Assembly (NCBI GenBank): GCA_903910385.1
Contig: CAIVZM010000051.1
Location: 1 to 64,000, forward strand
Reading direction: 5' to 3'
From: an uncultured Armatimonadota bacterium
Lineage (GTDB): Bacteria > Armatimonadota > Armatimonadia > Armatimonadales > Armatimonadaceae
DNA length: 64,000 bases
Position 1 is the stretch's first letter. Each line of letters opens with the position of its first letter. The translations under genes were made by a program, and so were the position numbers. The notes below the pieces were generated by a model, which was not told where the DNA came from, did not search any database, and saw only the letters and a list, made by a program, of their open reading frames with translations. Positions 6,909 through 18,920 of this stretch are shown piece after piece.

Positions 6909-8468
6909 TTGAAACAGCAAATTATCGCCTGCCTTGCAGGTATCGTCTTACTGACGCCAGCCGTTCAGGCGCAGACCAGTACGCCCGTCGCTACCATTAC
7001 GATCAATGCGACGCAACGAACGCCGATATCGACTTATATCTATGGCGTCAACTTTCCGGATTGGGTCAAGATGCCTCTGCCCTTTCCGCTTGCCCGGCAG
7101 GGCGGAAACCGCATGTCCGCTTATAACTGGGAAACCAACGCCAGCAATGCCGGGTCTGACTACCGCCATCAGAATGATGGTTATTTGAGTTCCTCGGATG
7201 AGCCGGGGTTGGTCGGACGGGAATTTCTGGAAGGCGCGCGCAATCATGGGGCCGTCACTATTCTGACCATCCCTATGACCGGTTATGTCTCCGCCGATAA
7301 AAAAGGCGATGGCGATGTCAATCAAACGCCGAACTATCTGGCGACGCGGTTCAAGCGTTCCCTGCCCAAAAAGCCCACACCGCCCGTCTACCCTCCCGAT
7401 ACCGCCGATCCGTTCGTTTATCAGGACGAATTCGTTGCATGGATAGAAAAGATCAAAGGCCCGAAAGCGTCGGTCTGGTACGCTCTGGACAATGAACCGG
7501 ATATCTGGGCGGGCACTCATGCGCGTATCGTCCCCAAAACCCCGACCTACGCCGAATTCATCGGCCGTAGTATAGAGTACGCTTCCGCAATCAAGGCGAT
7601 TGCCCCCCGTTCCGTCATTCTGGGGCCGGTGAGTTATGGTTGGCAGGGGTTCCGCCGCTTCCAGAACGCCAGCGATGCCAACAATCGTGATTTTCTGGAT
7701 GTGTACCTGAGCGCCATGCAAGATGCGGAACGAAAACAGGGGAAGCGCCTGCTGGATATCCTCGATATCCACTGGTACCCGGAAGCGCAGGGAGACGGCG
7801 TGCGCGTCACCGAGGAATCCGATAAGCCCGGCGTTTCCCCGGCGCGTATCCAGGCGCCACGTTCCCTGTGGGACCCAACTTATGTGGAAGAAAGCTGGAT
7901 TTCGCAATCGCTGGGGAAGAAACCTATCGCTTTATTGCCCGGCCTTAAACAACAGATTTCGACGCGCTATCCCGGCACAAAACTGGCGATAACGGAATAC
8001 AATTACGGTGGTAAGAAGGACATCAGCGGCGCCATCGCACAGGCGGATGTTCTGGGCATTTACGGTCGTTACGGCGTCTTCGCCGCCTGTAACTGGGGTA
8101 TCGGCGCGGAGGATATCGCGCAGATGGCTGGCTACCGCGCCTTTCTCAACTATGATAATCGTGGCGGACAGTTCGGTTCACTGGGTCTGGCGGTGCAGGG
8201 AGAAGCTCCCACCGACGATTCCGTCTATGCATCGCTGGATGCGAAAAACCAGAACCGCATGACTGTCGTCGTCCTCAATAAAACCGATAAACCGCGTCAG
8301 ACCGAACTGCGTTTCGCCGGATTCGTCCCGCAGACGGTCAGAGCCTACGGAATTACCAGAGATTCCCTGAAAGCGAGCGCTCCACTGACCGCAACAACAA
8401 AAAGCAGGGCCGTTTCCTTCGTCGCGCCGCCCCTGAGCGTCACGACGCTGGAAATCCTCCGCCGATAG
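6909..8468 (+). CDS. Secreted GH44 endoglucanase/xyloglucanase-like glycosidase
   Basis: 519 residues. The signal peptide is residues 1-22 (ending VQAQ). The GH44 catalytic domain begins with YGVNFPDW and has the acid/base Glu E196 in ALDNEPDIW and the nucleophile E363 in LAITEYNYGG; DIHWYPEA near 286 is also family-typical. The C-terminal about 90 residues form a beta-sandwich of the kind that follows GH44 barrels. GH44 enzymes cut beta-1,4-glucans including cellulose and xyloglucan. Translation appears to start at TTG 6909 with AGAGGAAAG just upstream; no ATG lies before the signal sequence in frame. It is divergent from lacI, which probably controls it. Confidence 0.88.
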   Translation: MKQQIIACLAGIVLLTPAVQAQTSTPVATITINATQRTPISTYIYGVNFPDWVKMPLPFPLARQGGNRMSAYNWETNASNAGSDYRHQNDGYLSSSDEPGLVGREFLEGARNHGAVTILTIPMTGYVSADKKGDGDVNQTPNYLATRFKRSLPKKPTPPVYPPDTADPFVYQDEFVAWIEKIKGPKASVWYALDNEPDIWAGTHARIVPKTPTYAEFIGRSIEYASAIKAIAPRSVILGPVSYGWQGFRRFQNASDANNRDFLDVYLSAMQDAERKQGKRLLDILDIHWYPEAQGDGVRVTEESDKPGVSPARIQAPRSLWDPTYVEESWISQSLGKKPIALLPGLKQQISTRYPGTKLAITEYNYGGKKDISGAIAQADVLGIYGRYGVFAACNWGIGAEDIAQMAGYRAFLNYDNRGGQFGSLGLAVQGEAPTDDSVYASLDAKNQNRMTVVVLNKTDKPRQTELRFAGFVPQTVRAYGITRDSLKASAPLTATTKSRAVSFVAPPLSVTTLEILRR

Positions 8469-8577: not shown

Positions 8578-9486
8578 ATGAGCGAAATTCACTGGCGCGG
8601 CGTCTTTCCCGCCGTCACCACGCAGTTGAAGCGGGATGAATCTCTGAACCTTGCGGCGACGGCGCATCACCTCGAAGTCTTGATCGATTCCGGCGTTTCC
8701 GGGCTCGTTATGTGCGGATCGCTGGGCGAGAGCCAGACGCTTGACCTGGACGAGAAGCTTGCGGTAGTGCGAACCGCTAAAGAAGTCAGCCAGTCGTTGA
8801 CCGGAGGGCGTATCCCCGTCATTTCCGGCGTTGCCGAGATGAGCACGGCGGCGGCGATACGTTACGCCCACGCCGCTCAGGAAGCCGGAGCCGACGGACT
8901 GATGGTTCTTCCCGCCATGGTGTACAAGGCGGATTCCCGCGAGACGATGCTCCATTACCGCGCGGTCGCCGCTGCAACCACATTGCCCATTCTGGTCTAC
9001 AACAATCCGGTCGGGTATGCGGTGGATATCACGCCCGAAATGTTCGCCGAACTGGCGGATGTGCCAAATCTGGTCGCCATCAAGGAGTCTTCCGCTGATA
9101 CGACCCGCATTACAGCGTTGTACAACGTCTGCGGCGACCGCTACGCGATCTTCGGCGGCGTCGATACCCTGATTATGGAATGCGTCCTTATGGGGGCGGT
9201 CGGATGGATCGCCGGAGCGGGGCTTGCCTTCCCGAAGGAGAATCAACGTCTCTGGGACTTGATGACCGCCGGCGAGTGGGAGAAGGCGCGGGCGCTGTGG
9301 CGCTGGTTCCTCCCCTTGATGACGTTGGACATCGGCCCGCATTTCGTGCAGTACATCAAACTGGCGATTCAAGAAGTCGGCTTAGGCGAAGAATGGGTGC
9401 GCGCCCCCCGGAAAACGCTGGTCGGCCCCGAGCGTGAGCGCATTCTCGCTTTGATTCATCAAGGAATCGAAGCGCGGCCTTCGTGA
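8578..9486 (+). CDS. DapA-family lyase, probable 1-pyrroline-4-hydroxy-2-carboxylate deaminase
   Basis: 302 residues, a full-length (beta/alpha)8 member of the DapA/NAL family. The Schiff-base lysine is K169 (LVAIKESSAD), the catalytic tyrosine is Y141 (LVYNNPVGY), and GSLGES near residue 47 is the substrate-carboxylate loop. True dihydrodipicolinate synthases have an Arg shortly after the Tyr (PSRTG-type); here the position reads NNPVGYAVD, so a lysine-biosynthesis role is unlikely. A 4-hydroxyproline epimerase homologue and a D-amino-acid dehydrogenase follow nearby. I infer it deaminates the pyrroline intermediate to 2-oxoglutarate semialdehyde. A sugar-acid aldolase or other DapA-family activity remains possible. 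Confidence 0.75.
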   Translation: MSEIHWRGVFPAVTTQLKRDESLNLAATAHHLEVLIDSGVSGLVMCGSLGESQTLDLDEKLAVVRTAKEVSQSLTGGRIPVISGVAEMSTAAAIRYAHAAQEAGADGLMVLPAMVYKADSRETMLHYRAVAAATTLPILVYNNPVGYAVDITPEMFAELADVPNLVAIKESSADTTRITALYNVCGDRYAIFGGVDTLIMECVLMGAVGWIAGAGLAFPKENQRLWDLMTAGEWEKARALWRWFLPLMTLDIGPHFVQYIKLAIQEVGLGEEWVRAPRKTLVGPERERILALIHQGIEARPS

Positions 9487-9497
9487 TGATGGATTGA

Positions 9498-9559
9498 TCT
9501 CTGAAAAGAAACCAACCCCGAAAGCGTTGCGCCTTCGGGGTTGGTTTTCTTTTCAGAGA
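9498..9559. terminator. Very long bidirectional terminator hairpin
   Basis: A 25-bp stem (9498-9522 with 9534-9559, one bulged T) closes an 11-nt loop. The stem carries A-rich and T-rich stretches on its outer part, so either strand yields a GC-rich stem flanked by a T-rich run. It lies between the convergent DapA-family and aldo/keto reductase genes, starting 11 nt after one stop codon and ending 13 nt before the other. Confidence 0.85.
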
Positions 9560-9572
9560 ATATAATCCCGGA

Positions 9573-10553
9573 CTATGCCAGCGTCTCACGGATAAAGGTG
9601 AGGTCGTCTGCGGAGAGAGCGTCTCGGTTGACGCCCGCCAGATTACAACGCGCCTGACGCTCGTTACGGAAGCCGGGAATCACGCAGGCGACATTCTTAT
9701 GCGCCAGCAGATACCCCAGCGCCATTGCCGCCAGGTCTTCGGTCGTCGCGCCGAAACGCGCTTTCAGTTTTTCCAGTTTGGGCTTGAGGGCGTTGATCGC
9801 CTCAGAGCCGAATGCGGAATTGCCCAGACGGTGGTCGCCGGGTTCGAACTGCGGCGGATTGTCCGGATTGAACTTGTCGAGCAGACGTCCCTGCGCCAGC
9901 GGGCTGAAGGCGACAAAGGTGCAGTGATGCTCGTCCATCAGTTTTTGCAGGGGAGCGCCCTCCCGAATATACTGGTCGTCCAGAGCGTGCGCCCAGCTTT
10001 GCAACGCGACCGGACGCACCACCGGAACGGCGCGGGCGAAATCGTTATAAGAGTAGGCGCTCTGTCCTTTCAGGCGAATCTTGCCTTCCTCTACCAGTTT
10101 GTCCAGAGTTGCGGCGGCATCCTCCAGATACAGGGCGTCTTTCCCGAAGTCGCCGTGGTGAAAATAGTAAAGGTCGATATAATCGCGCTTCAGGTTGATG
10201 AGCGACTGCTCACACTGATGGCGTATGTGCGCCGGTTCGTAAGCGTGCGCCGCCGTGCCGGGAAAGTGACCGATTTTGGTGGCGATAATGTAATCTTCCG
10301 ATTTGACGCCCAGTTGATCAAAGACACGGGCAAGCATGCGTTCCGCTTTACCGTTACCATAGACATCCGCGTTATCGAAGTGGTTTACTCCAGCGTCAAT
10401 CGCCGCTTTGATACCTGCGGTGATTTCGCTTTCGTCTACGTTCGCCCAACCGTTGGGGCTGCCATTCACCCAGTTCAGACCACCCATTGTCCAGCAACCA
10501 AAACTGACTTCGGATACCTTGATTCCGGAGTTTCCGAGTTCCCTGTACTTCAT
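9573..10553 (-). CDS. Aldo/keto reductase
   Basis: 326 residues, a complete AKR barrel. The catalytic tetrad is visible as D60 and Y65 (HFDNADVYG), K93 (IIATKIGHF) and H132 (LYYFHHGDF). Late motifs (FSPLAQGRL, VIPGFRNERQ) match the NADP-binding part of the YghZ/Tas-like oxidoreductases. AKRs reduce aldehydes and ketones with NAD(P)H in the cytosol; the substrate is not evident. It lies opposite to the hydroxyproline genes, which raises the possibility of 2-oxoglutarate semialdehyde handling, but that is only positional. Start ATG 10553 has AGGA about 8 nt upstream; a longer in-frame ATG at 10640 adds a non-conserved tail. Confidence 0.85.
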   Translation of the reverse strand: MKYRELGNSGIKVSEVSFGCWTMGGLNWVNGSPNGWANVDESEITAGIKAAIDAGVNHFDNADVYGNGKAERMLARVFDQLGVKSEDYIIATKIGHFPGTAAHAYEPAHIRHQCEQSLINLKRDYIDLYYFHHGDFGKDALYLEDAAATLDKLVEEGKIRLKGQSAYSYNDFARAVPVVRPVALQSWAHALDDQYIREGAPLQKLMDEHHCTFVAFSPLAQGRLLDKFNPDNPPQFEPGDHRLGNSAFGSEAINALKPKLEKLKARFGATTEDLAAMALGYLLAHKNVACVIPGFRNERQARCNLAGVNRDALSADDLTFIRETLA

Positions 10554-10667
10554 GCCTGTTCCTGTAGCTCGCAGTTTTTTTGCGTCCCCCGATGCCGAAT
10601 TTTTACCGGATAGGAGAAACGCCCCGAACGAGCGCTTCATTGTACCCAGAGCGAACGCTTTATGGTG

Positions 10668-10673
10668 TACAAT
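10668..10673 (+). promoter_or_regulatory. Candidate -10 box of the epimerase gene
   Basis: TACAAT lies 10 nt before ATG 10684, so a transcript would carry only a few leader nucleotides. No good -35 is seen at 16-18 bp. Confidence 0.4.
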
Positions 10674-10683
10674 TCGGCTGGCA

Positions 10684-11628
10684 ATGAATGGAATGCGTAA
10701 AATTCTGGCGGTGGATTCTCATACGGGCGGTGAGCCGACCCGAGTGATCGTAGAAGGCGGTCCGGAACTCGGCGGCGGGACGATGGCGGAACGACGGGAT
10801 ATTTTCAGGGAACGATTCGATCACTTTCGGCGAGCGACGGTCTGTGAGCCTCGCGGAAACGATGTGATGGTCGGCGCATTAGTGTGTGAACCTTCCGACC
10901 CGGAATGCGCCGCCGGGGTCATTTTCTTCAATAATGTCGGTTATCTCGGGATGTGCGGTCACGGAACCATTGGTCTGGTGTCCACTCTGGCGTATCTCGG
11001 ACGCATCACGATGCCCGCTTCCGGCCCGGCAAGGCTCAAAATAGAAACTCCGGTCGGGATTGTGAACGCAATGCTACATCGAGATGGTCGCGTCTCGGTG
11101 AAGAATGTGCCGTCCTACCGCAAAGCGAAGGCGGTTTCCATTACGGTTCCGGGCATCGGCGTAGTAACCGGCGATGTCGCCTATGGGGGAAACTGGTTTT
11201 TCCTGATGTATGACTATCCCGGCGAAATCTCTCTGGCACAGGCGGGGCGACTGACGGAATATTCGGAGCGGATTCGTCGCGCCGTCAACGAGATTTATCC
11301 AGAAGTGGATCATGTCGAGTTATTCGGCCCGCCTTCTCACCCGGATGCCGCCGACAGCAAAAACTTTGTTCTCTGTCCCGGCGGCGCCTATGACCGTTCC
11401 CCCTGCGGCACCGGAACCTCCGCCAAACTCGCCTGCCTCTGTTCCGACGGGAAATTCGCCCCGTTCGATACCTACCGTCAGGAAAGCGTCACCGGTAGTG
11501 TCTTTGAGGGGCACGTCGAAATCGAGGATGACGTTATCTTCCCTATCATTACCGGCAGCGCCTTTATCAATAGTGAGGCGACCTTGATCCTGAATTCGGA
11601 CGATCCGCTGTGCTGGGGGATGCCTTAG
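10684..11628 (+). CDS. Proline racemase family enzyme, probable 4-hydroxyproline 2-epimerase
   Basis: 314 residues, the usual length for this family. The two catalytic cysteines are C91 in GMCGHGT and C241 in SPCGTGTSA. The first motif (MCGHGTI) is the form common in hydroxyproline epimerases and proline racemases, and Cys at both sites excludes the dehydratase branch, which carries Thr or Ser. The reaction would interconvert trans-4-hydroxy-L-proline and cis-4-hydroxy-D-proline. It is followed 42 bp later by an FAD D-amino-acid dehydrogenase, the next step of the route, and a DapA-family deaminase homologue is 1.2 kb upstream. Start choice: ATG 10684, with 10693 as an alternative. Confidence 0.85.
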   Translation: MNGMRKILAVDSHTGGEPTRVIVEGGPELGGGTMAERRDIFRERFDHFRRATVCEPRGNDVMVGALVCEPSDPECAAGVIFFNNVGYLGMCGHGTIGLVSTLAYLGRITMPASGPARLKIETPVGIVNAMLHRDGRVSVKNVPSYRKAKAVSITVPGIGVVTGDVAYGGNWFFLMYDYPGEISLAQAGRLTEYSERIRRAVNEIYPEVDHVELFGPPSHPDAADSKNFVLCPGGAYDRSPCGTGTSAKLACLCSDGKFAPFDTYRQESVTGSVFEGHVEIEDDVIFPIITGSAFINSEATLILNSDDPLCWGMP

Positions 11629-11670
11629 TCTGACGGAATTGCGATAGCGAAGGATGAGAAGCGGCAGTAC

Positions 11671-12942
11671 GTGAACGAAAAATCCCTGATTATCATCGGC
11701 GGCGGCGTCATCGGACTCTGCGCCGCCTATTATGCGGTGTACGAAGGATGGCGCGTCACTATTATCGAGCGGGGCGAACCAGCGCACGATTCCTGTTCGC
11801 TGGGCAATGCAGGAATGATCGTGCCCTCCCATATCGTTCCTCTGGCGGCGCCCGGCATGGTCGGTCTGGGAATACGGATGCTGGGCAATCCGGAAAGTCC
11901 CTTCGCTATTCGCCCCCGGCTATCGTCGGAGTTGGCAGACTGGGGACTCAAATTCGTGCGTTCCTGCACCGAGGAGCATGTGACACGGAGCGCCCCACTT
12001 TTACGCGATCTCAATCTGACCAGTCGTCGCCTGTACGAAGAACTGGACACGGAAATCGGCGATTTCGGATTAATGCGGCGCGGTTTGTTGATGCTGTGCA
12101 AAACGGCGCACGGATTAGAAGAGGAAACCCGCTTTGCGGCGCGGGCGAACGCTCTGGGCGTTCCCGCCGAAGTACTGACACCCGCACAAACCGCCGCTCT
12201 GGATCCCGGTATCACGATGGATATCGCCGGCGCAATTTTCTTTCCCAAAGACTGTCACCTTTCGCCACAGCGCTTTGTCGCTTTATTGACACAACGATTG
12301 CAGCAGGGAGGCGCGACCTTTCTCTGGAATACCGAAGTCACCGGATGGCGCACGAAGCCGGATGGAAGTCTTACCGCCGTTCAGACAAAGACGGGGGATG
12401 TCGTCGGAGATGAGTTCGTTCTGGCGGGCGGGGCATGGAGTTCGCAACTCGCGCAAATGCTACGGCTGAAAATTCCGATGCAGGCGGGAAAAGGGTACAG
12501 TCTCACCGTCGACGCCCCGCGCCGAACGCCTGAAATCTGTTCGATCCTTACCGAAGCGCGAGTTGCGGTTACGCCGATGTCTTCACCGCAGGGTTCGACA
12601 CTCCGTTTTGGCGGAACGATGGAACTGGGGGGACTGGATCTCTCCATCAACGCCGCCCGCGTTCGCGGCATTCTGAAATCGGTTCCGGCGTACTATCCGG
12701 ACTTTACCGAAAAGGACTTCGTCGGTCTGCCGGTCTGGAGTGGCCTGCGGCCCTGCTCCCCGGACGGCCTGCCCTATCTCGGACGCGCCGAGACGCGCCC
12801 GAACCTGATTTTCGCCGCCGGTCACGCCATGATGGGGCTATCTCTTGCCCCGGTAACCGGGAAAATTGTCGCGGATTTGCTGGCGCATCGTAAGCCAGAC
12901 CTTGATATATCCCTGCTACGTCCGGAGCGATGGGCGAATTGA
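11671..12942 (+). CDS. FAD-dependent D-amino-acid dehydrogenase (DadA-like), probable D-hydroxyproline dehydrogenase
   Basis: 423 residues in the DAO superfamily. The N-terminal Rossmann motif is IIIGGGVIGLCAAYY, with an acidic residue at the end of the second strand (VTIIERG). SLGNAGMIVPSH and the C-terminal SGLRPCSPDGLPYLG and GHAMMGLSLAPVTG segments match DadA-type dehydrogenases, which oxidise D-amino acids to imino acids and pass electrons to the respiratory chain. Position directly after the epimerase suggests cis-4-hydroxy-D-proline as substrate, giving 1-pyrroline-4-hydroxy-2-carboxylate. GTG 11671 is the start with AAGGATGAG upstream. The next gene begins within or just after its last codons, so translation is probably coupled. 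Confidence 0.85.
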   Translation: MNEKSLIIIGGGVIGLCAAYYAVYEGWRVTIIERGEPAHDSCSLGNAGMIVPSHIVPLAAPGMVGLGIRMLGNPESPFAIRPRLSSELADWGLKFVRSCTEEHVTRSAPLLRDLNLTSRRLYEELDTEIGDFGLMRRGLLMLCKTAHGLEEETRFAARANALGVPAEVLTPAQTAALDPGITMDIAGAIFFPKDCHLSPQRFVALLTQRLQQGGATFLWNTEVTGWRTKPDGSLTAVQTKTGDVVGDEFVLAGGAWSSQLAQMLRLKIPMQAGKGYSLTVDAPRRTPEICSILTEARVAVTPMSSPQGSTLRFGGTMELGGLDLSINAARVRGILKSVPAYYPDFTEKDFVGLPVWSGLRPCSPDGLPYLGRAETRPNLIFAAGHAMMGLSLAPVTGKIVADLLAHRKPDLDISLLRPERWAN

Positions 12943-12962
12943 GAAACCGAATCGACAACTGT

Positions 12963-15500
12963 ATGAGGATTTTGCACGGGCTGATTCTTTTTTGCGCCAT
13001 GACCCATCTACTCAGCGATAACGCTGCCTTCGGGCAGGGAACGAAAGCCGACTACGCCCGCGCCGCAACCTTGAATGAACGGTTCCAGGGCAAAGTTCGC
13101 AATGCCGAGATACGCCCTCGCTGGATGTCGGACGGCACAGCGTTCTGGTACGCATCGGACACTGGGGAGGGCAAACGCATCTTCTGGCGCGTGATGACCG
13201 CCACCGGGAAAAAAGAACCCATGTTTGATCACGCCCGACTTGCTAAAAGTCTCACCGGCACACTGAAAATGCTCGTCACCGCAGACGCCTTACCTATAGA
13301 AGCGCTGACCTTCGCTTCAGATCGGAAGACTATCTATTTTCTGGCGGGCGGCAAGTTCTGGCAATGCCATCTGACCGACTACGCCCTATCCGAGATCAAT
13401 CCGAAGTCAGCGACAGAGGCGAAAGAGCTGCTACTGCAAGCGCATGCTCCCGGCGATAACGCCGTCCGTTCCTGGCATAATGGTCCGCCGACAGTTCTGC
13501 TTTTCGTCAATCAGAGCGGGGCAGAAGTTTTTCTCTACTGGGTGGATGGCGATGGCGCGAGACATTCGTATGGTAGCATCAAGGCAGGAGAATCCCGGCG
13601 GATGACTTCTTATTCCGGTCATGCCTTTCTTGCCATTGGTTCCGACCAGAAGGAGATAGCCGGGTTCGTCGCGGAGGACGATTTCAAAATTGCAGTGATC
13701 CCTGCAAAACATGTCGAAGCCGCTCCGACCCCACCTTCGACATCATCCGGCTCGACCGGACGGGCGCCGGACGGTAAAAAGACCGCGTTCCTGCGAGATC
13801 GCAACCTTTACTGCCGCGAGGAAGCGACGGGCAAAGAAACGCGCCTGACAACCGACGGAGCAACGGAAAACTACTACGAGGAACCGCTTTTCTGGTCGCC
13901 CGATAGCAAGAAACTGGTCGCCTTCCGCACAATTCCCGAGCAGGAACACAAAGTCTATATGGTGGATTCATCCCCTGCGGATCAGATGCAACCAAAATTA
14001 AAGACTATCGATTATCTCAAGCCCGGCGACCGTATCGCGCAATCGAAGCCACACCTCTTTTCCGTTTCGGAGGGCGAAGAAATACCCGTTAGCGACGCTC
14101 TTTTCCCGACGCCCTGGGAACGGGACGATATTCGCTGGGCGCCGGATTCATCGCAATTCACCTTCCTCTACAATCAACGGGGCCATCAAATCGTCCGCCT
14201 GATCAGCGTCGATGCAATAACGGGAAAGGTGCGAACCATCGCTGAGGAAGTCAGCAAAACGTTCGTTGACTATGCCAACAAGATTCATCGAGATTTCCTT
14301 GATGCCACTGGCGAAGTTGTCTGGATGTCCGAACGCGATGGCTGGAACCATCTCTATCTGATCGATACGAAAACCGGGCAGGTAAAGAATCAAATCACCC
14401 GAGGCTCCTGGGTCGTGCATAGCGTAGACAGAATCGATGCGAAGACAAGGCAAATCTGGTTCCGGGCGGGCGGCGTCAATCCGGCGCAAGACCCGTATTA
14501 TATCCATTACTGTCGCGTCAATTTTGATGGTTCCGGCTTCGTTGATCTCACTCCCAGCGATGGAACGCATCAGGCAATCTTTTCCCCGGATGGCAAGTAC
14601 CTGACCGATACCTATTCCCGCGTCGATATGCCTCCGGTTACCGAGTTACGGCGGGCATCCGATGGCAAACTGCTGACCGAAATCGAACGCGCCGATGCCT
14701 CCGCTCTGACCGCCGCCGGTTGGACAACTCCCGAACGGTTCGTCGCCCGGGGGCGAGACGGCAAAACGGATATTTATGGCATCATTCTGCGCCCTTCCAA
14801 CTTTGACCCGGCGAAGAAATACCCCATCGTGGAAGAAATCTACGCCGGACCGCACGGTCAGCACGTTCCCAAGTCGTTCGCCACGATTCAGGGCGGGCAG
14901 GTGATGGCGGAACTGGGTTTTATCGTCGTTCGCATTGATGGTATGGGAACCAATTGGCGCTCAAAAGCCTTCCACGATGTCTGCTGGAAAAACCTTGCGG
15001 ATGCCGGTTTCCCTGACCGCATTTTGTGGATCAAGGCAGCCGCCGCAAAGTATCCCCAGATGGATATCACACGCGGCGTCGGGATTTACGGCGGTTCGGC
15101 GGGCGGGCAAAACGCCATGCGGGCGTTGCTGGATCACAACGATTTCTATACGGTCGCCGTCGCGGACTGCGGTTGCCATGATAACCAGATGGACAAAATC
15201 TGGTGGAACGAACTCTGGATGGGTTGGCCGGTCGATGAGTCCTACAAAAAATCTTCCAATGTGACCGACGCTCACAAATTACAGGGTAAGTTGCTTCTGA
15301 TCGTCGGCGAACTGGATACGAATGTCGATCCCGCCTCGACCATGCAGGTAGCGAACGCCCTGATCAAAGCGGACAAAGACTTCGATTTACTGGTAATTCC
15401 AGGCGCGAACCATGGCGCGGCGGGAACGCCCTATGGAAGACGGCGTCAGCAGGATTTTCTGGTTCGTCACCTTCTGGGCGTCGAGCCACGGGCAAAGTAG
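12963..15500 (+). CDS. Secreted S9-family (dipeptidyl peptidase IV-like) serine peptidase
   Basis: 845 residues from ATG 12963. A hydrophobic signal peptide (ILHGLILFCAMTHLLS) ends before the mature region. An N-terminal DPP-IV beta-propeller with repeated SPDSKKL/APDSSQF-type blades is followed by a C-terminal alpha/beta-hydrolase domain. The triad is Ser in YGGSAGGQNAM, Asp in GELDTNVDP and His in GANHGAAGT. S9 enzymes remove dipeptides, often after proline. Within a hydroxyproline operon it may release Hyp-containing peptides outside the cytoplasm (inference). An in-frame ATG at 12930 overlaps the dehydrogenase gene by 13 nt and would give a longer signal peptide; I cannot decide between them. 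About 60 residues before the propeller are unusual for the family. Confidence 0.88.
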   Translation: MRILHGLILFCAMTHLLSDNAAFGQGTKADYARAATLNERFQGKVRNAEIRPRWMSDGTAFWYASDTGEGKRIFWRVMTATGKKEPMFDHARLAKSLTGTLKMLVTADALPIEALTFASDRKTIYFLAGGKFWQCHLTDYALSEINPKSATEAKELLLQAHAPGDNAVRSWHNGPPTVLLFVNQSGAEVFLYWVDGDGARHSYGSIKAGESRRMTSYSGHAFLAIGSDQKEIAGFVAEDDFKIAVIPAKHVEAAPTPPSTSSGSTGRAPDGKKTAFLRDRNLYCREEATGKETRLTTDGATENYYEEPLFWSPDSKKLVAFRTIPEQEHKVYMVDSSPADQMQPKLKTIDYLKPGDRIAQSKPHLFSVSEGEEIPVSDALFPTPWERDDIRWAPDSSQFTFLYNQRGHQIVRLISVDAITGKVRTIAEEVSKTFVDYANKIHRDFLDATGEVVWMSERDGWNHLYLIDTKTGQVKNQITRGSWVVHSVDRIDAKTRQIWFRAGGVNPAQDPYYIHYCRVNFDGSGFVDLTPSDGTHQAIFSPDGKYLTDTYSRVDMPPVTELRRASDGKLLTEIERADASALTAAGWTTPERFVARGRDGKTDIYGIILRPSNFDPAKKYPIVEEIYAGPHGQHVPKSFATIQGGQVMAELGFIVVRIDGMGTNWRSKAFHDVCWKNLADAGFPDRILWIKAAAAKYPQMDITRGVGIYGGSAGGQNAMRALLDHNDFYTVAVADCGCHDNQMDKIWWNELWMGWPVDESYKKSSNVTDAHKLQGKLLLIVGELDTNVDPASTMQVANALIKADKDFDLLVIPGANHGAAGTPYGRRRQQDFLVRHLLGVEPRAK

Positions 15501-15522
15501 AATATCTACCGGAGAAGTAACA

Positions 15523-17322
15523 ATGACCGTTATTCAAAGCGCTACGAAACGGATGCCGCCGCCGGAATGGGCGCTGGCGCAACGTAACCTGATACGAACC
15601 ATGAACGAGGCGGCGCCGATCTTTCAGGCGCGATACACGCGAGCCGATGGCTCTTTTATCTGGCGTCAGGAATGGCCCGGCTTTGATGGTTCCGACGATG
15701 GCTACGAAAGTTACCACAACTGGCCGCTATTCTACGCCCTCGGCGGGGCGGAGGATGTGTACTCTCGCAGTCGCTTTCTCTGGGAAGCGGTGACGCAACA
15801 ATTTACCGGGTACGGACAACTCTGGCGCGAATACGACGCCCATTACGACTGGATGCACCACGGCGAAAGCAGTCTGTACTTCTACTATTTCGGTCTGTGC
15901 GAGGCGGCGAACCCGATAGATATCGGGCGCACACGACGCTTCGCCTCCCTGTACGACGGTTCCGACCCACTCGCGCCAAACTATGACGCCGAACGCAAAC
16001 AGATGCGCTCCCCGATCACCGGAAGTCGCGGTCCGCGCACGGTGAACGAATGGGACGACTGGGAAACCCACCGGGCGATTCTGGCGAATTACCCCGCTCC
16101 CTTCAGCGATATACCCGGAGTCTCACGAGGCGCGAATGGCGAGTGGCCCATCGCAGACTGGAACGATGACCGGGTGTACGGAGATATCTTGCGCCTGCTG
16201 AACGAGCGACAGATGTCCGGCGATGTTCCCCTGAACCTGACAGCGACCAGTCTGTTGACGCACGCCTTCGCCCTGACCGGCGACGAGAAATACCGCCGAT
16301 GGGTTATCGATTATCTCGAAGCATGGTCGGAACGTATCGTCCGGAATGACGGTCTTTGTCCCGACAACATCGGTTCCAACGGCGTTATCGGAGAGACGCT
16401 GGGCGGAAACTGGTGGGGAGGTTATTATGGCTGGCAGTGGCCGCACGGCTTCATGACAATCCTCCAACCCCTGCTCATCGCAGCTATGAACGCTTCCCTG
16501 CTGACGGGTGACCTGACGTATCTGGATATCCCCCGCAGCCAGTTGGATAAGATCGTTTCTCTGGGCAGGGAGGAAAACGGACGATGGCTTGTCCCGCATC
16601 GTCACACCGATGATGGTTGGACGGCTTACCGTCCCCTTGCCCCGGAGTTCCCCCTGCAACTCGCCTACTTCTCACACGACAAACGCGATTTCGACCGTCT
16701 GCAACAGTTCCCGGAACGAACGGGCGCATGGCGGGACATTCTGCCGGGGCGTGGCAAAGGGGATGATATTCATATCGCACCCTGGCATTGCTATTTGCAG
16801 GGAGACACCCCCGACTATCCGTCGCGGATTCTCGCCGCACAATGGGAGGAAGTCGCCCAGCGTATGGAAAAGATGCGGCACGATGACACCGACCCGGAAA
16901 CGTGGGACGTTCATCACTGGCAGGAAATCAATCCCGTTCACACCGAAGCCCTGATCCAACTCACCCTCGGCGGACCGCAGGTCATTTATCACGGCGGTCT
17001 GCTCCATGTTCCCCTGCGCTATTTCGATGCAGACGCCCGCCGTCCCGGACTCCCGCCCGATGTCGGCGCGTTGGTATCTGCCGTGACGGGTGATTCCCTG
17101 ACCGTCACCTTGACCAATCTCAGCCCGCTGCATCAACGGCGATTGATACTACAAGCAGGAGCGTTCGGCGAGCATGAGTGGACAACGGTGCAGGCAGGAG
17201 ACACAACTCACCTCGTCGGCAAGCGACATTTTACGACGGAATTACATCCCGGAGCCTCGCTGACGCTCCGTCTGGGAATGCGCCGATTCGTCCATGCGCC
17301 GGGGTATACTCAGCCCTGGTAA
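15523..17322 (+). CDS. Uncharacterised 599-residue protein, possible alpha/alpha-toroid enzyme
   Basis: I do not recognise a named family. No signal peptide or membrane segment is visible, so it is probably cytosolic. The protein is rich in Trp, Tyr and His and has long helix-like stretches separated by loops bearing clustered aromatics and acids (YESYHNWPLFYALGG, HYDWMHHGESSLYFYY, NWWGGYYGWQWPHGF, HHWQEINP). This resembles the (alpha/alpha)6 barrels of some glycosidases, lyases and epimerases. A beta-rich tail of about 90 residues follows. Start ATG 15523 has GGAG 8 nt upstream. It begins 22 bp after the S9 peptidase stop and is the fourth co-directional gene of the hydroxyproline operon, so it may process a sugar on a Hyp-glycopeptide; this is conjecture. 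Confidence 0.75.
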   Translation: MTVIQSATKRMPPPEWALAQRNLIRTMNEAAPIFQARYTRADGSFIWRQEWPGFDGSDDGYESYHNWPLFYALGGAEDVYSRSRFLWEAVTQQFTGYGQLWREYDAHYDWMHHGESSLYFYYFGLCEAANPIDIGRTRRFASLYDGSDPLAPNYDAERKQMRSPITGSRGPRTVNEWDDWETHRAILANYPAPFSDIPGVSRGANGEWPIADWNDDRVYGDILRLLNERQMSGDVPLNLTATSLLTHAFALTGDEKYRRWVIDYLEAWSERIVRNDGLCPDNIGSNGVIGETLGGNWWGGYYGWQWPHGFMTILQPLLIAAMNASLLTGDLTYLDIPRSQLDKIVSLGREENGRWLVPHRHTDDGWTAYRPLAPEFPLQLAYFSHDKRDFDRLQQFPERTGAWRDILPGRGKGDDIHIAPWHCYLQGDTPDYPSRILAAQWEEVAQRMEKMRHDDTDPETWDVHHWQEINPVHTEALIQLTLGGPQVIYHGGLLHVPLRYFDADARRPGLPPDVGALVSAVTGDSLTVTLTNLSPLHQRRLILQAGAFGEHEWTTVQAGDTTHLVGKRHFTTELHPGASLTLRLGMRRFVHAPGYTQPW

Positions 17323-17344
17323 TCCGAAAGATTCAACAGGCTAT

Positions 17345-17386
17345 CTGATGATTAGAAACTGATGATTAGAAACTGATGATTAGAAA
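17345..17386. repeat. Three perfect tandem copies of a 14-bp unit
   Basis: CTGATGATTAGAAA occurs three times head to tail (17345-17358, 17359-17372, 17373-17386) between the unknown gene and the PQQ-type propeller gene, 23 bp upstream of the latter's start. It may be a replication-slippage product or a spaced set of regulator sites. Confidence 0.9.
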
Positions 17387-17408
17387 TCGGACGGAAGAAA
17401 GCATCAAT

Positions 17409-18920
17409 ATGAGACATGGAACGTTGTATCGCCTTTCCGTCCTTTTGCTCCTGACCACTTTTACTTGCCTGCGGAATGCTCAGGCGCAATCTTCCCTGTT
17501 TGTTGACCCGGCGCCTCCGAAAGTCCAGACGGTTTCTCCAATTCCTGCGCTCAAACCGCAGAAGCAGGCGGAATTAACCTTTCATACCGCTCCGAAGCCG
17601 TTGGCGGCGGGAGCCGTGACCAACGAATGGCGCACCTTCTTGGGACCGACATACAACGGCGTTTCTACTGAAACGCCCCTGTTGAAATCGTTCGATAAGA
17701 AAACCCCAACGATCCTCTGGGAAGTCAAAAAAGGCGAAGGGTACGCTTCTCCTGCGGTTGTCGGCGATTCCGTTATCCTCTTTCATCGTCTGGGCAATGA
17801 GGAAATTATCGAGCGGCTGAACGCCGAGAACGGTCAGCGTTTCTGGAAGTTCGCATACCTGACGAGTTATTCAGACCGTTATGGTTTCGATGGCGGTCCC
17901 CGCTGTCAACCGGTCAGCGATGGAGTCCGGGTATACGCCTACGGAGCGGGAGGCGCATTGCACTGCCTGGATTTCGCAACTGGACAGGTTTTGTGGAGCC
18001 GCGATATCGCCAGAGAATTCAAAACGCCGCAGGATTTTTTCGGCGTCGGCGCGACTCCGCTGATAGAAGACGACAAACTGATCATCAACGTCGGCGCTCC
18101 GGGCGGTCCTTGTGTCGCTGGTTTTGATGTGAAAACCGGACGCCTGCTGTGGGGAGCTGGAAAGGAATGGGGACCGAGTTATGCCGCCCCTGTCCCGGCG
18201 ACCATCCATGGCAAACGGCGCGTCTTCGTTTTCGCCGGAGGGGAAAGCCGTCCCTCGACCGGCGGGCTGCTCTGTATCGATCCGGCAAACGGCAAAATAG
18301 ACTTCGCTTTTCCCCACCGGGCACGGCGGTACGAATCGGTCAATGCTTCCGCGCCGCTGATTATCGGAAATCAGGTATTCATCTCAGAGTGTTACGGCCC
18401 CGGAGGCGCGTTACTGGAAATCGCGCCGGATTTTACCGTCCGTAAGGTATGGAGTAGCGAGGCTCTGCAAACACACTTCATGACAGCAGTCCATAAGGAT
18501 GGCTACCTCTATGGGGTTGATGGTCACGGCCCGAGTAATGCGCCGCTGGTGTGTATCGATCTCAAGACGGGCAAGGAAATGTGGCGCACGGAACCCGACT
18601 GGCAGGAAACGCTGACCACAACGGACGGCGAGCGCACAGCAAGCCTCTCCTCCGCGTTGGCGTCGATGACTCTGGTGGACGGGCGTTGCCTTCTACTCGG
18701 GTACTACGGGCATCTTGCCTGGCTTGACCTGAACCCCCGAAGTTACAAAGAACTGAGCAGGACGCTTCTCTTTTTTGCGCCACAAACCTGGAGTCATCCT
18801 GCATTGAGTCGTGGTCTGCTTTATGTCTGCCAGAATGAGCGGGGTCTGGATAATTCTCGTCCGCGCCTGATCTGTTATGATTTGCGAGGCGGCGCCGCTA
18901 ATCCGGACAAACCAAAGTGA
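17409..18920 (+). CDS. Exported PQQ-type beta-propeller repeat protein
   Basis: 503 residues. The signal peptide is residues 1-26 (YRLSVLLLLTTFTC then AQAQ). The rest is a PQQ-like eight-bladed propeller with repeated tryptophan-docking motifs such as LNAENGQRFWKF, LDFATGQVLWSR, DVKTGRLLWGA and DLKTGKEMWRT. Residues typical of calcium/PQQ-binding dehydrogenase active sites are not evident, so it is more likely a binding or scaffold propeller than an alcohol dehydrogenase. Start ATG 17409 is preceded by GGAAGAAAG at about 10 nt; an in-frame ATG at 17376 lies inside the tandem repeat and would hide the signal peptide. It follows the hydroxyproline genes by 86 bp and may or may not belong to that operon. 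Confidence 0.82.
   Translation: MRHGTLYRLSVLLLLTTFTCLRNAQAQSSLFVDPAPPKVQTVSPIPALKPQKQAELTFHTAPKPLAAGAVTNEWRTFLGPTYNGVSTETPLLKSFDKKTPTILWEVKKGEGYASPAVVGDSVILFHRLGNEEIIERLNAENGQRFWKFAYLTSYSDRYGFDGGPRCQPVSDGVRVYAYGAGGALHCLDFATGQVLWSRDIAREFKTPQDFFGVGATPLIEDDKLIINVGAPGGPCVAGFDVKTGRLLWGAGKEWGPSYAAPVPATIHGKRRVFVFAGGESRPSTGGLLCIDPANGKIDFAFPHRARRYESVNASAPLIIGNQVFISECYGPGGALLEIAPDFTVRKVWSSEALQTHFMTAVHKDGYLYGVDGHGPSNAPLVCIDLKTGKEMWRTEPDWQETLTTTDGERTASLSSALASMTLVDGRCLLLGYYGHLAWLDLNPRSYKELSRTLLFFAPQTWSHPALSRGLLYVCQNERGLDNSRPRLICYDLRGGAANPDKPK

Follow-up and report, generated by a model that had tools for sequence, protein, structure and literature searches.

The 64,000-nucleotide stretch of DNA analysed here (the window) contains a locus that we read as a system for feeding on hydroxyproline (Hyp). 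An exported peptidase, equipped with a domain homologous to the beta domain of VHL, would capture and cleave Hyp peptides, and the products would then be catabolized inside the cell. We assign this interpretation a probability of roughly 0.68. The enzyme families, the homology to VHL, the conservation of the pocket and the association with Hyp genes are observed, in sequence, in genomic context and in a modelled fold; the activities, the binding of Hyp and the targeting of substrates by the domain are inferred.

Organization of the locus

The genes of the locus are real, intact open reading frames. Those for the epimerase HypE, a DadA-like dehydrogenase and an S9 peptidase form one run on the same strand, and the gene for a DapA-like lyase lies nearby. 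Between the lyase gene and hypE is the gene for an aldo-keto reductase (9573..10553, minus strand; PF00248, E 8e-49), the reading frame of which extends to 10640 with a likely start, MKYRELG, at about 10553; the original prediction made no mention of it. Because this minus-strand gene intervenes, the lyase gene is here outside the hypE transcription unit. A part for the reductase in the Hyp pathway is not indicated. Starting 22 bp past the peptidase gene is a gene for a protein of unknown family (15523..17322, plus strand), which gave no matches in Pfam, NCBIfam or PDB, and this is followed by one for a PQQ-type beta-propeller protein (17376..18920, plus strand; PF13360, E 2e-29). No homologue of the former and no close homologue of the latter is present in the hyp loci of relatives, and membership in the Hyp system is not established for either. 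A scan for promoters and terminators yielded counts near chance and is left out of the evidence.

Predicted enzymes of hydroxyproline catabolism

The putative 4-hydroxyproline 2-epimerase (HypE; 10693..11628, plus strand) is the sole Pro_racemase protein of the genome (PF05544, E 4e-96) and matches PA1268 (PDB 2azp) with E 6e-108. Both catalytic cysteines are present, C88 in GMCGHG and C238 in SPCGTG, counted from the Met at 10693; the original prediction had recognized this pair correctly but numbered it C91/C241, owing to an offset in the start codon. Proline racemases fall within the same family, and it is conceivable that the enzyme is one of these and that the operon degrades proline peptides only. 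The best NCBIfam model is 4-hydroxyproline epimerase, with 384.5 bits, which is short of the curated equivalog cut-off of 442, a naming threshold and not a biochemical criterion. The models for proline racemase and trans-3-Hyp dehydratase score 225 and 195 bits, proline racemase also ranks far behind the 4HypE type, to which the nearest models and solved structures belong, and the DapA-like partner is compatible with a Hyp route alone (PMC4113996). We give the proline racemase reading almost no credence; the assignment as a 4-hydroxyproline epimerase is supported by sequence comparison, the epimerase activity being inferred.

The DadA-like gene (11671..12942, plus strand) directly follows, as had been claimed, starting 42 bp past the end of hypE. 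It encodes an FAD dehydrogenase/oxidase of the DAO family (PF01266, E 2e-69), and the gene pair recurs in many relatives and in Verrucomicrobiota. The protein is probably a cis-4-hydroxy-D-proline dehydrogenase, an activity that is again inferred.

The DapA/DHDPS-superfamily lyase (8578..9486, plus strand; PF00701, E 8e-55) scores 165 bits, below the dapA cut-off of 206. The Lys that forms the Schiff base (K169) and the Tyr (Y141) are retained, and YNNPVGY occupies the site of the DHDPS substrate Arg, in agreement with the earlier remark that this Arg is lacking. In a tree it belongs to a well-supported clade of its own, apart from dapA, of which we know of no characterised member. It shares 44% identity with the hyp-cluster DHDPS of Granulicella and Deinococcus and 27% with the dapA product of its own genome; its clade is sister to these hyp-cluster enzymes, with a weakly supported join (91/32). 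For comparison we used 101 related genomes, 24 with HypE and 77 without. Orthologues of the lyase occur in 22 of the former and in one of the latter (Fisher p 7e-19), and in many relatives the gene directly adjoins hypE. The earlier assignment of three of the four pathway steps to the locus is upheld by this distribution, with the activities inferred, and the DapA-like protein is probably the pyrroline-4-hydroxy-2-carboxylate deaminase (HypD/LhpC role), likewise by inference.

The local gene order could suggest another function. The lyase gene lies 109 bp behind a GH44 gene (6909-8468) on the same strand and is parted from hypE by the minus-strand gene, and NCBIfam sugar-acid members also score, more weakly. 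The gene might accordingly form a group with those for GH44 and LacI and encode a sugar-acid aldolase or dehydratase, leaving the hypE-dehydrogenase pair alone to handle (hydroxy)proline stereoisomers. However, an enzyme of that kind would not be expected beside hypE in many relatives and almost nowhere without it, nor as sister, even through a weak join, to hyp-cluster DHDPS. On co-occurrence and tree we reject the aldolase as the main reading of this enzyme, and we hold the whole scenario to be very improbable. In several relatives the neighbours of the lyase gene include ORFs of 286-302 aa that look conserved. They do not form one family: one encodes a prepilin-like protein, two are unplaced, and the rest belong to the HExxH metallopeptidase family described below.

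The window encodes no aldehyde dehydrogenase, as originally stated, and the nine Aldedh matches of the genome are all on other contigs. A genome search for the last-step enzyme nevertheless yielded a candidate ketoglutarate-semialdehyde dehydrogenase of the GucD type (C35:55521-56918), homologues of which adjoin hyp clusters in genome G096 and in Gemmatirosa. We regard it as a good candidate, with its activity inferred. None of the genome's aldehyde dehydrogenases groups with the type found in the hyp clusters of the closest relatives.

A VHL-type domain in the exported peptidase

Directly after the dehydrogenase gene is that for an S9 (DPP4/PtpA-like) peptidase (12963..15500, plus strand; PF00930 and PF00326), with a signal-peptide-like N terminus that begins at 12963; a signal-bearing S9 peptidase in the same operon had indeed been predicted. 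The protein matches PtpA (2d5l) with E 1e-53, and an AF2 model (pLDDT 86) has 2ecf and 2dcm as its top Foldseek matches. The triad Ser712, Asp785 and His817 is invariant across 38 sequences. We considered a DPP4-type dipeptidyl peptidase and rejected it: the fold matches, but the Glu motif that anchors the substrate N terminus in DPP4 is absent, there being an 11-residue gap relative to 2d5l and no conserved Glu at residues 300-310 in the 38 sequences.

Within this protein, at 13482..13692 (plus strand), is a VHL beta-type domain, the only one in the genome, which matches PF01847 with 27.5 bits (31.6 in the genome search), above the curated Pfam cut-off of 21 bits. Compared with PDB, a profile of the domain retrieved VHL only (E 2e-11), the next other match being at 0.007. 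An AF2 model of the domain aligns to VHL with a TM of 0.81 and an rmsd of 1.8 Å, and its best 50 Foldseek matches are all VHL, with TM up to 0.81. Judged by these profiles and models, the domain is homologous to VHL. The alpha domain of the VHL E3 ligase, which binds elongin C, is absent, and the propeller and hydrolase come after the domain instead. The original prediction had missed the domain.

The classic reader of hydroxylated proline is pVHL, a protein of eukaryotic oxygen sensing that is also widely used in targeted protein degradation. Its Hyp site is formed by W88, Y98, S111, H115 and W117 (PMC9528729), to which W193, Y203, S217, H220 and F222 correspond. The first four are identical and F222 is a conservative replacement; the position of H110 holds a Thr. 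Over 70 bacterial domains, W88 is kept in 70, Y98 in 69, Ser or Thr at 111 in 70, H115 in 68 and W117 in 69. By plain entropy, five of the six most strongly conserved of 89 columns are pocket positions; outside the pocket the domains diverge to about 30% identity. This conservation could be structural, because all the VHL-type domains examined keep the pocket. Binding of Hyp by the bacterial domain is an inference, for which there are no binding data.

Association of the domain with Hyp genes

VHL-S9 peptidases are present in 22 of the 24 genomes with HypE and in 13 of the 77 others (p 3e-11). In the orthologous peptidases the domain sits either towards the N terminus or at the C-terminal end. 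In 13 genomes no more than about 10 kb separates the peptidase gene from hypE or from that for the lyase, and the fullest of the relatives' clusters also carry M24 Xaa-Pro peptidases and an aldehyde dehydrogenase. This proximity favours the link between peptidase and Hyp that had been proposed, with cleavage inferred, and the VHL-type domain argues more strongly still that the peptidase deals with Hyp peptides. Similar clusters occur in Verrucomicrobiota, for example in Verrucomicrobium sp. BvORR106. A sample of 195 genomes spread over that phylum has 11 carriers of VHL and 12 of HypE, and 2 genomes carry both, against 0.7 expected. We do not count this overlap as support and therefore claim a genome-wide association only for the phylum of the window.

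VHL-type domains also recur in unrelated architectures that are tied to two unrelated Hyp pathways. In genome G020 a protein with an ArsR-type HTH and a VHL domain is encoded next to a glycyl-radical trans-4-hydroxyproline dehydratase and the activase of that enzyme, together with a GH127 protein and a peptidase of the M24 Xaa-Pro type. Fusions of an HExxH metallopeptidase with VHL exist as well, and VHL-less homologues from that family sit within hyp clusters.

These data bear on an alternative in which ordinary Hyp catabolism is accompanied by a prolyl peptidase. On that view the VHL-type domain either is a long-standing module for structure or dimerisation or has a ligand that is not Hyp (plain Pro peptides, for instance), and its pocket residues are kept for folding. 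S9 enzymes of the DPP4/PtpA group are broadly prolyl-directed, VHL-S9 proteins occur without HypE in many genomes (13 of 35 in the phylum and 12 of 36 elsewhere), and the pocket persists in every bacterial architecture examined, a stand-alone domain included. This alternative does not readily explain why the residues retained are those of the pVHL Hyp site (PMC9528729), why they rank among the best conserved in so diverged a domain, or why further unrelated architectures are tied to Hyp pathways of two kinds. We consider it unlikely, without dismissing it.

Discussion

In the proposed feeding system, Hyp would come from Hyp-containing proteins or peptides. The VHL-type domain would recognize it through an aromatic cage and a Ser/Thr-His contact to the hydroxyl, as pVHL does with HIF, and would direct or retain Hyp peptides for cleavage by the S9 enzyme, a use that is inferred. 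HypE would convert the freed Hyp to cis-4-hydroxy-D-proline, the DadA-like enzyme would oxidise this to pyrroline-4-hydroxy-2-carboxylate, the DapA-like enzyme would deaminate the latter to 2-oxoglutarate semialdehyde, and the GucD-type dehydrogenase, encoded elsewhere, would oxidise the semialdehyde to 2-oxoglutarate.

A broader hypothesis, which we rate an even bet, takes the VHL beta fold to be an old and widely distributed module that reads Hyp and serves bacteria in Hyp nutrition. Peptidase fusions (S9, HExxH) would target Hyp-rich proteins, the DNA-binding fusion would regulate Hyp catabolism, and the HIF reader of animals would be one late use, possibly of bacterial origin. If our reading is correct, the Hyp reader of animal oxygen sensing also serves bacteria as a feeding tool, and a way for soil bacteria to exploit Hyp-rich proteins has been identified. 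A bacterial homologue of VHL that shares its pocket and is encoded in operons for Hyp degradation would account for the purpose of bacterial VHL domains and would bear on the origin of VHL. If it binds Hyp, it would provide small soluble modules for detecting collagen or extensin.

We found no bacterial VHL-hydroxyproline or VHL-peptidase link in the open-access literature, subscription papers being outside the search. A VHL-domain hypothetical protein of Litorilituus sediminis, published earlier (PMC9002001), is likewise a bacterial VHL beta domain and was read as a tumour suppressor, without connection to a peptidase or to Hyp metabolism. The known bacterial trans-4-hydroxy-L-proline pathway consists of HypE, cis-4-Hyp oxidase, Pyr4H2C deaminase and KGSA dehydrogenase (PMC4113996). 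All four enzyme families are present here, three at the locus and a candidate for the fourth elsewhere, but the DapA-like enzyme is of a separate clade, the dehydrogenase gene is unlinked and of the GucD type, and the operon includes a VHL-bearing peptidase. The glycyl-radical trans-4-hydroxy-L-proline dehydratase operon (HypD, PDB 6vxc), which in G020 comes with the VHL-bearing regulator, M24 peptidase and GH127, represents an unrelated anaerobic route that is absent from this locus. With DPP4 and prolyl tripeptidyl aminopeptidase (S9, PDB 2ecf, 2d5l) the peptidase shares the propeller and hydrolase fold, the triad and the export signal, and it differs in the gap at the Glu that binds the N terminus and in the added VHL-type domain. 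The bacterial domain itself resides in a secreted multidomain peptidase, lacks the alpha domain and has no ubiquitin-ligase role; S111 is mostly Thr in the relatives and W117 is Phe in this copy. With the beta domain of human pVHL (PDB 1lm8, 4awj) it nevertheless has in common the profile, the predicted fold, the residues of the Hyp pocket and a link to Hyp, which here is genomic.

A probable hydroxyproline catabolic locus

The genome containing the window comprises 4.47 Mb in 84 contigs, and all the genes named in the original prediction are intact. On the plus strand a GH44 gene (6909-8468) and the DapA-like lyase gene (8578-9486) are followed, beyond a minus-strand aldo-keto reductase gene (9573 to about 10553), by hypE (10693-11628), a DadA-like dehydrogenase gene (11671-12942), the S9 peptidase gene (12963-15500), a gene 22 bp behind it for a 599-residue protein of unknown family (15523-17322) and one for a PQQ-type propeller protein (17376-18920). 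We chose the starts at 10693, 12963 and 15523 from alignments and the appearance of signal peptides. The gaps from hypE through the propeller gene are 42, 20, 22 and 53 bp, so short that hypE, the dehydrogenase and the peptidase look like one transcription unit, to which the lyase gene does not belong in this genome. Within the family, three genomes have an aldo-keto reductase-type gene beside hypE (window 9573-10553, L083:8526-9767 and L089:14625-15761), the genes differing in orientation and sharing only 26-27% identity.

The epimerase, sole member of its family in the genome, is a two-cysteine protein of the 4HypE type; its nearest solved relative is 2azp. Its best models are for 4-hydroxyproline epimerase (384.5 and 364.5 bits, short of the strict cut-offs, 442 and 450), and proline racemase (225) and trans-3-hydroxyproline dehydratase (195) score well below these. 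The genome encodes two proteins of the DHDPS family, of which the lyase is one. That the lyase is dapA was ruled out by its 27% identity to dapA and its position in a different clade of the tree. The lyase clade (30 rows, support 99/96) includes hyp-cluster genes of relatives, and its placement as sister to those of Granulicella and Deinococcus is weakly supported. Among 101 related genomes, 24 possess HypE (E below 1e-60), 23 a lyase orthologue (at least 44% identity) and 22 both (Fisher p 7e-19; these tests take genomes as independent, ignoring shared descent), and in many the two genes adjoin. The one genome with the lyase alone, G003, is 80% complete. This co-occurrence backs the predicted assignment of three enzymes to 4-hydroxyproline (Hyp) degradation, their activities being inferred, and we regard Hyp catabolism at this locus as very probable.

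The window contains no aldehyde dehydrogenase gene, in line with the original prediction, which noted that the enzyme of the last step is missing from it. The proposed genome search for 2,5-dioxovalerate dehydrogenase yielded, among six full-length aldehyde dehydrogenase matches, an unlinked candidate (C35:55521-56918). Its best model is the alpha-ketoglutaric semialdehyde dehydrogenase GucD (684.8 bits, cut-off 770), its next-best 2,5-dioxovalerate dehydrogenase, and in G096 and Gemmatirosa homologues with 47-51% identity adjoin the hyp cluster. Judged from sequence, this GucD-type protein is likely the last enzyme, and therefore the pathway can be complete with its last gene unlinked. Most relatives have an aldehyde dehydrogenase of a different type, linked to the hyp genes.

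A VHL-type domain on the peptidase

The S9 protein carries a VHL beta domain (Pfam), the only VHL domain in the genome. By iterated search, almost every S9 orthologue in the phylum proved to have the domain, some carrying it N-terminally and others at the C-terminal end; the G096 copy lacks it. A profile of 32 sequences, run against all PDB sequences, retrieved 24 VHL entries (E 2e-11 to 4e-10) and beyond these nothing better than E 0.007. The AF2 model of the domain (93 residues, pLDDT 84.6, pTM 0.73) had only VHL among its best 50 structure matches (TM up to 0.81, rmsd 1.8).

In human pVHL the Hyp pocket consists of Trp88, Tyr98, His110, Ser111, His115 and Trp117, with the Hyp hydroxyl hydrogen-bonded to Ser111 and His115 (PMC9528729). 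We compared 70 bacterial domains, that of the window and 69 from Planctomycetota, Verrucomicrobiota, Armatimonadota and others. W88 and S or T at 111 are present in all 70, Y98 and W117 in 69, H115 in 68 and H110 in 55. When 89 columns were ranked by plain entropy, five pocket positions took ranks 2-6 and H110 rank 17, the first rank falling to the position of VHL N78. The window protein has W193, Y203, S217 and H220, plus F222 at position 117, where no other of the 70 domains has F. We infer, with a probability of about 0.65-0.7, that the domain binds Hyp and targets the peptidase.

Association with Hyp genes supports the predicted link between peptidase and pathway. Across the phylum sample, 22 of 24 HypE genomes have the S9 family vs 13 of 77 others (p 3e-11). 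Thirteen genomes, drawn from five families, have its gene no more than about 10 kb from hypE or the lyase gene (G000, the window's genome, with G003, G004, G005, G008, G009, G010, G011, G014, G018, G030, G034 and G071). The G014 cluster unites aldehyde dehydrogenase, M24 Xaa-Pro peptidase, S9 peptidase, dehydrogenase, HypE, HExxH peptidase and lyase. Among named genomes a scan picked up 80 loci, 70 with the VHL domain; about nine, mainly in Verrucomicrobiota, have hyp-gene neighbours, and 24 of the 36 genomes with VHL-S9 loci possess HypE. Of 195 genomes sampled widely across the phylum of Verrucomicrobium, 11 had VHL, 12 strong HypE and 2 both, close to the 0.7 expected, so that VHL-bearing S9 peptidases are not exclusive to HypE carriers.

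The domain also has other partners. In G020 a 270-residue protein joins an ArsR-type HTH to a C-terminal VHL-type domain (L303:5371-6183, G020:C79, minus strand). Its gene belongs to a co-directional run that also encodes a glycyl-radical trans-4-hydroxy-L-proline dehydratase (1245.5 bits, cut-off 1100) and the activase of that enzyme, together with an M24 Xaa-Pro peptidase and a GH127 beta-L-arabinofuranosidase, and the protein is a candidate Hyp-sensing regulator. G456, G507 and G508 encode fusions of the domain with a secreted-looking HExxH metallopeptidase-like protein of no clear Pfam family (L336:1428-2468, L337:2213-3391, L338:7920-9092), and VHL-less homologues of that protein lie within the hyp clusters of G003, G014 and G018 and in those of two Verrucomicrobiota (L241, L245). 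Through these different partners, and across two pathways unrelated to each other, the domain is connected with Hyp. A stand-alone VHL-domain protein of 117-132 aa (L304:7949-8302, same as L285) keeps the pocket residues; no Hyp genes were recognised beside it.

Substrate, export and comparison with known systems

Arabinofuranosidase or GH127 genes lie beside the hyp clusters of G083, G017, G020 and Granulicella, directly adjoining the catabolic genes at L102:11147-13486, L014:2347-7969 and L086:10350-12386, where they are of the beta-L-arabinofuranosidase (GH127) or alpha-L-arabinofuranosidase type. In extensins, L-arabinose is linked to Hyp. This adjacency hints at plant Hyp-rich glycoproteins as the source; collagen is not excluded.

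The peptidase resembles DPP4 and PtpA in sequence and fold, and its catalytic triad is invariant in the alignment. Compared with PtpA, it lacks 11 residues in the segment bearing the N-terminus-binding glutamate, and the alignment revealed no conserved Glu there. Its activity being inferred, it may act as an exopeptidase that uses a different anchor, or its specificity may have shifted; substrate recognition could, by inference, be supplied by the VHL-type domain. Export is supported by the twin-arginine-like leaders of some relatives' S9 peptidases. Three genomes of a single genus have, immediately upstream of the VHL-S9 gene, a gene for an 800-residue protein (L093:7210-9612, L098:3617-6019, L110:2853-5255), the L093 copy having an S9-type hydrolase domain.

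Within the searchable literature, a VHL-bearing peptidase in the Hyp pathway appears to be unreported. The catabolic pathway itself is already known, and the same four families figure in a neighbourhood study of the lyase superfamily in eLife (PMC4113996).
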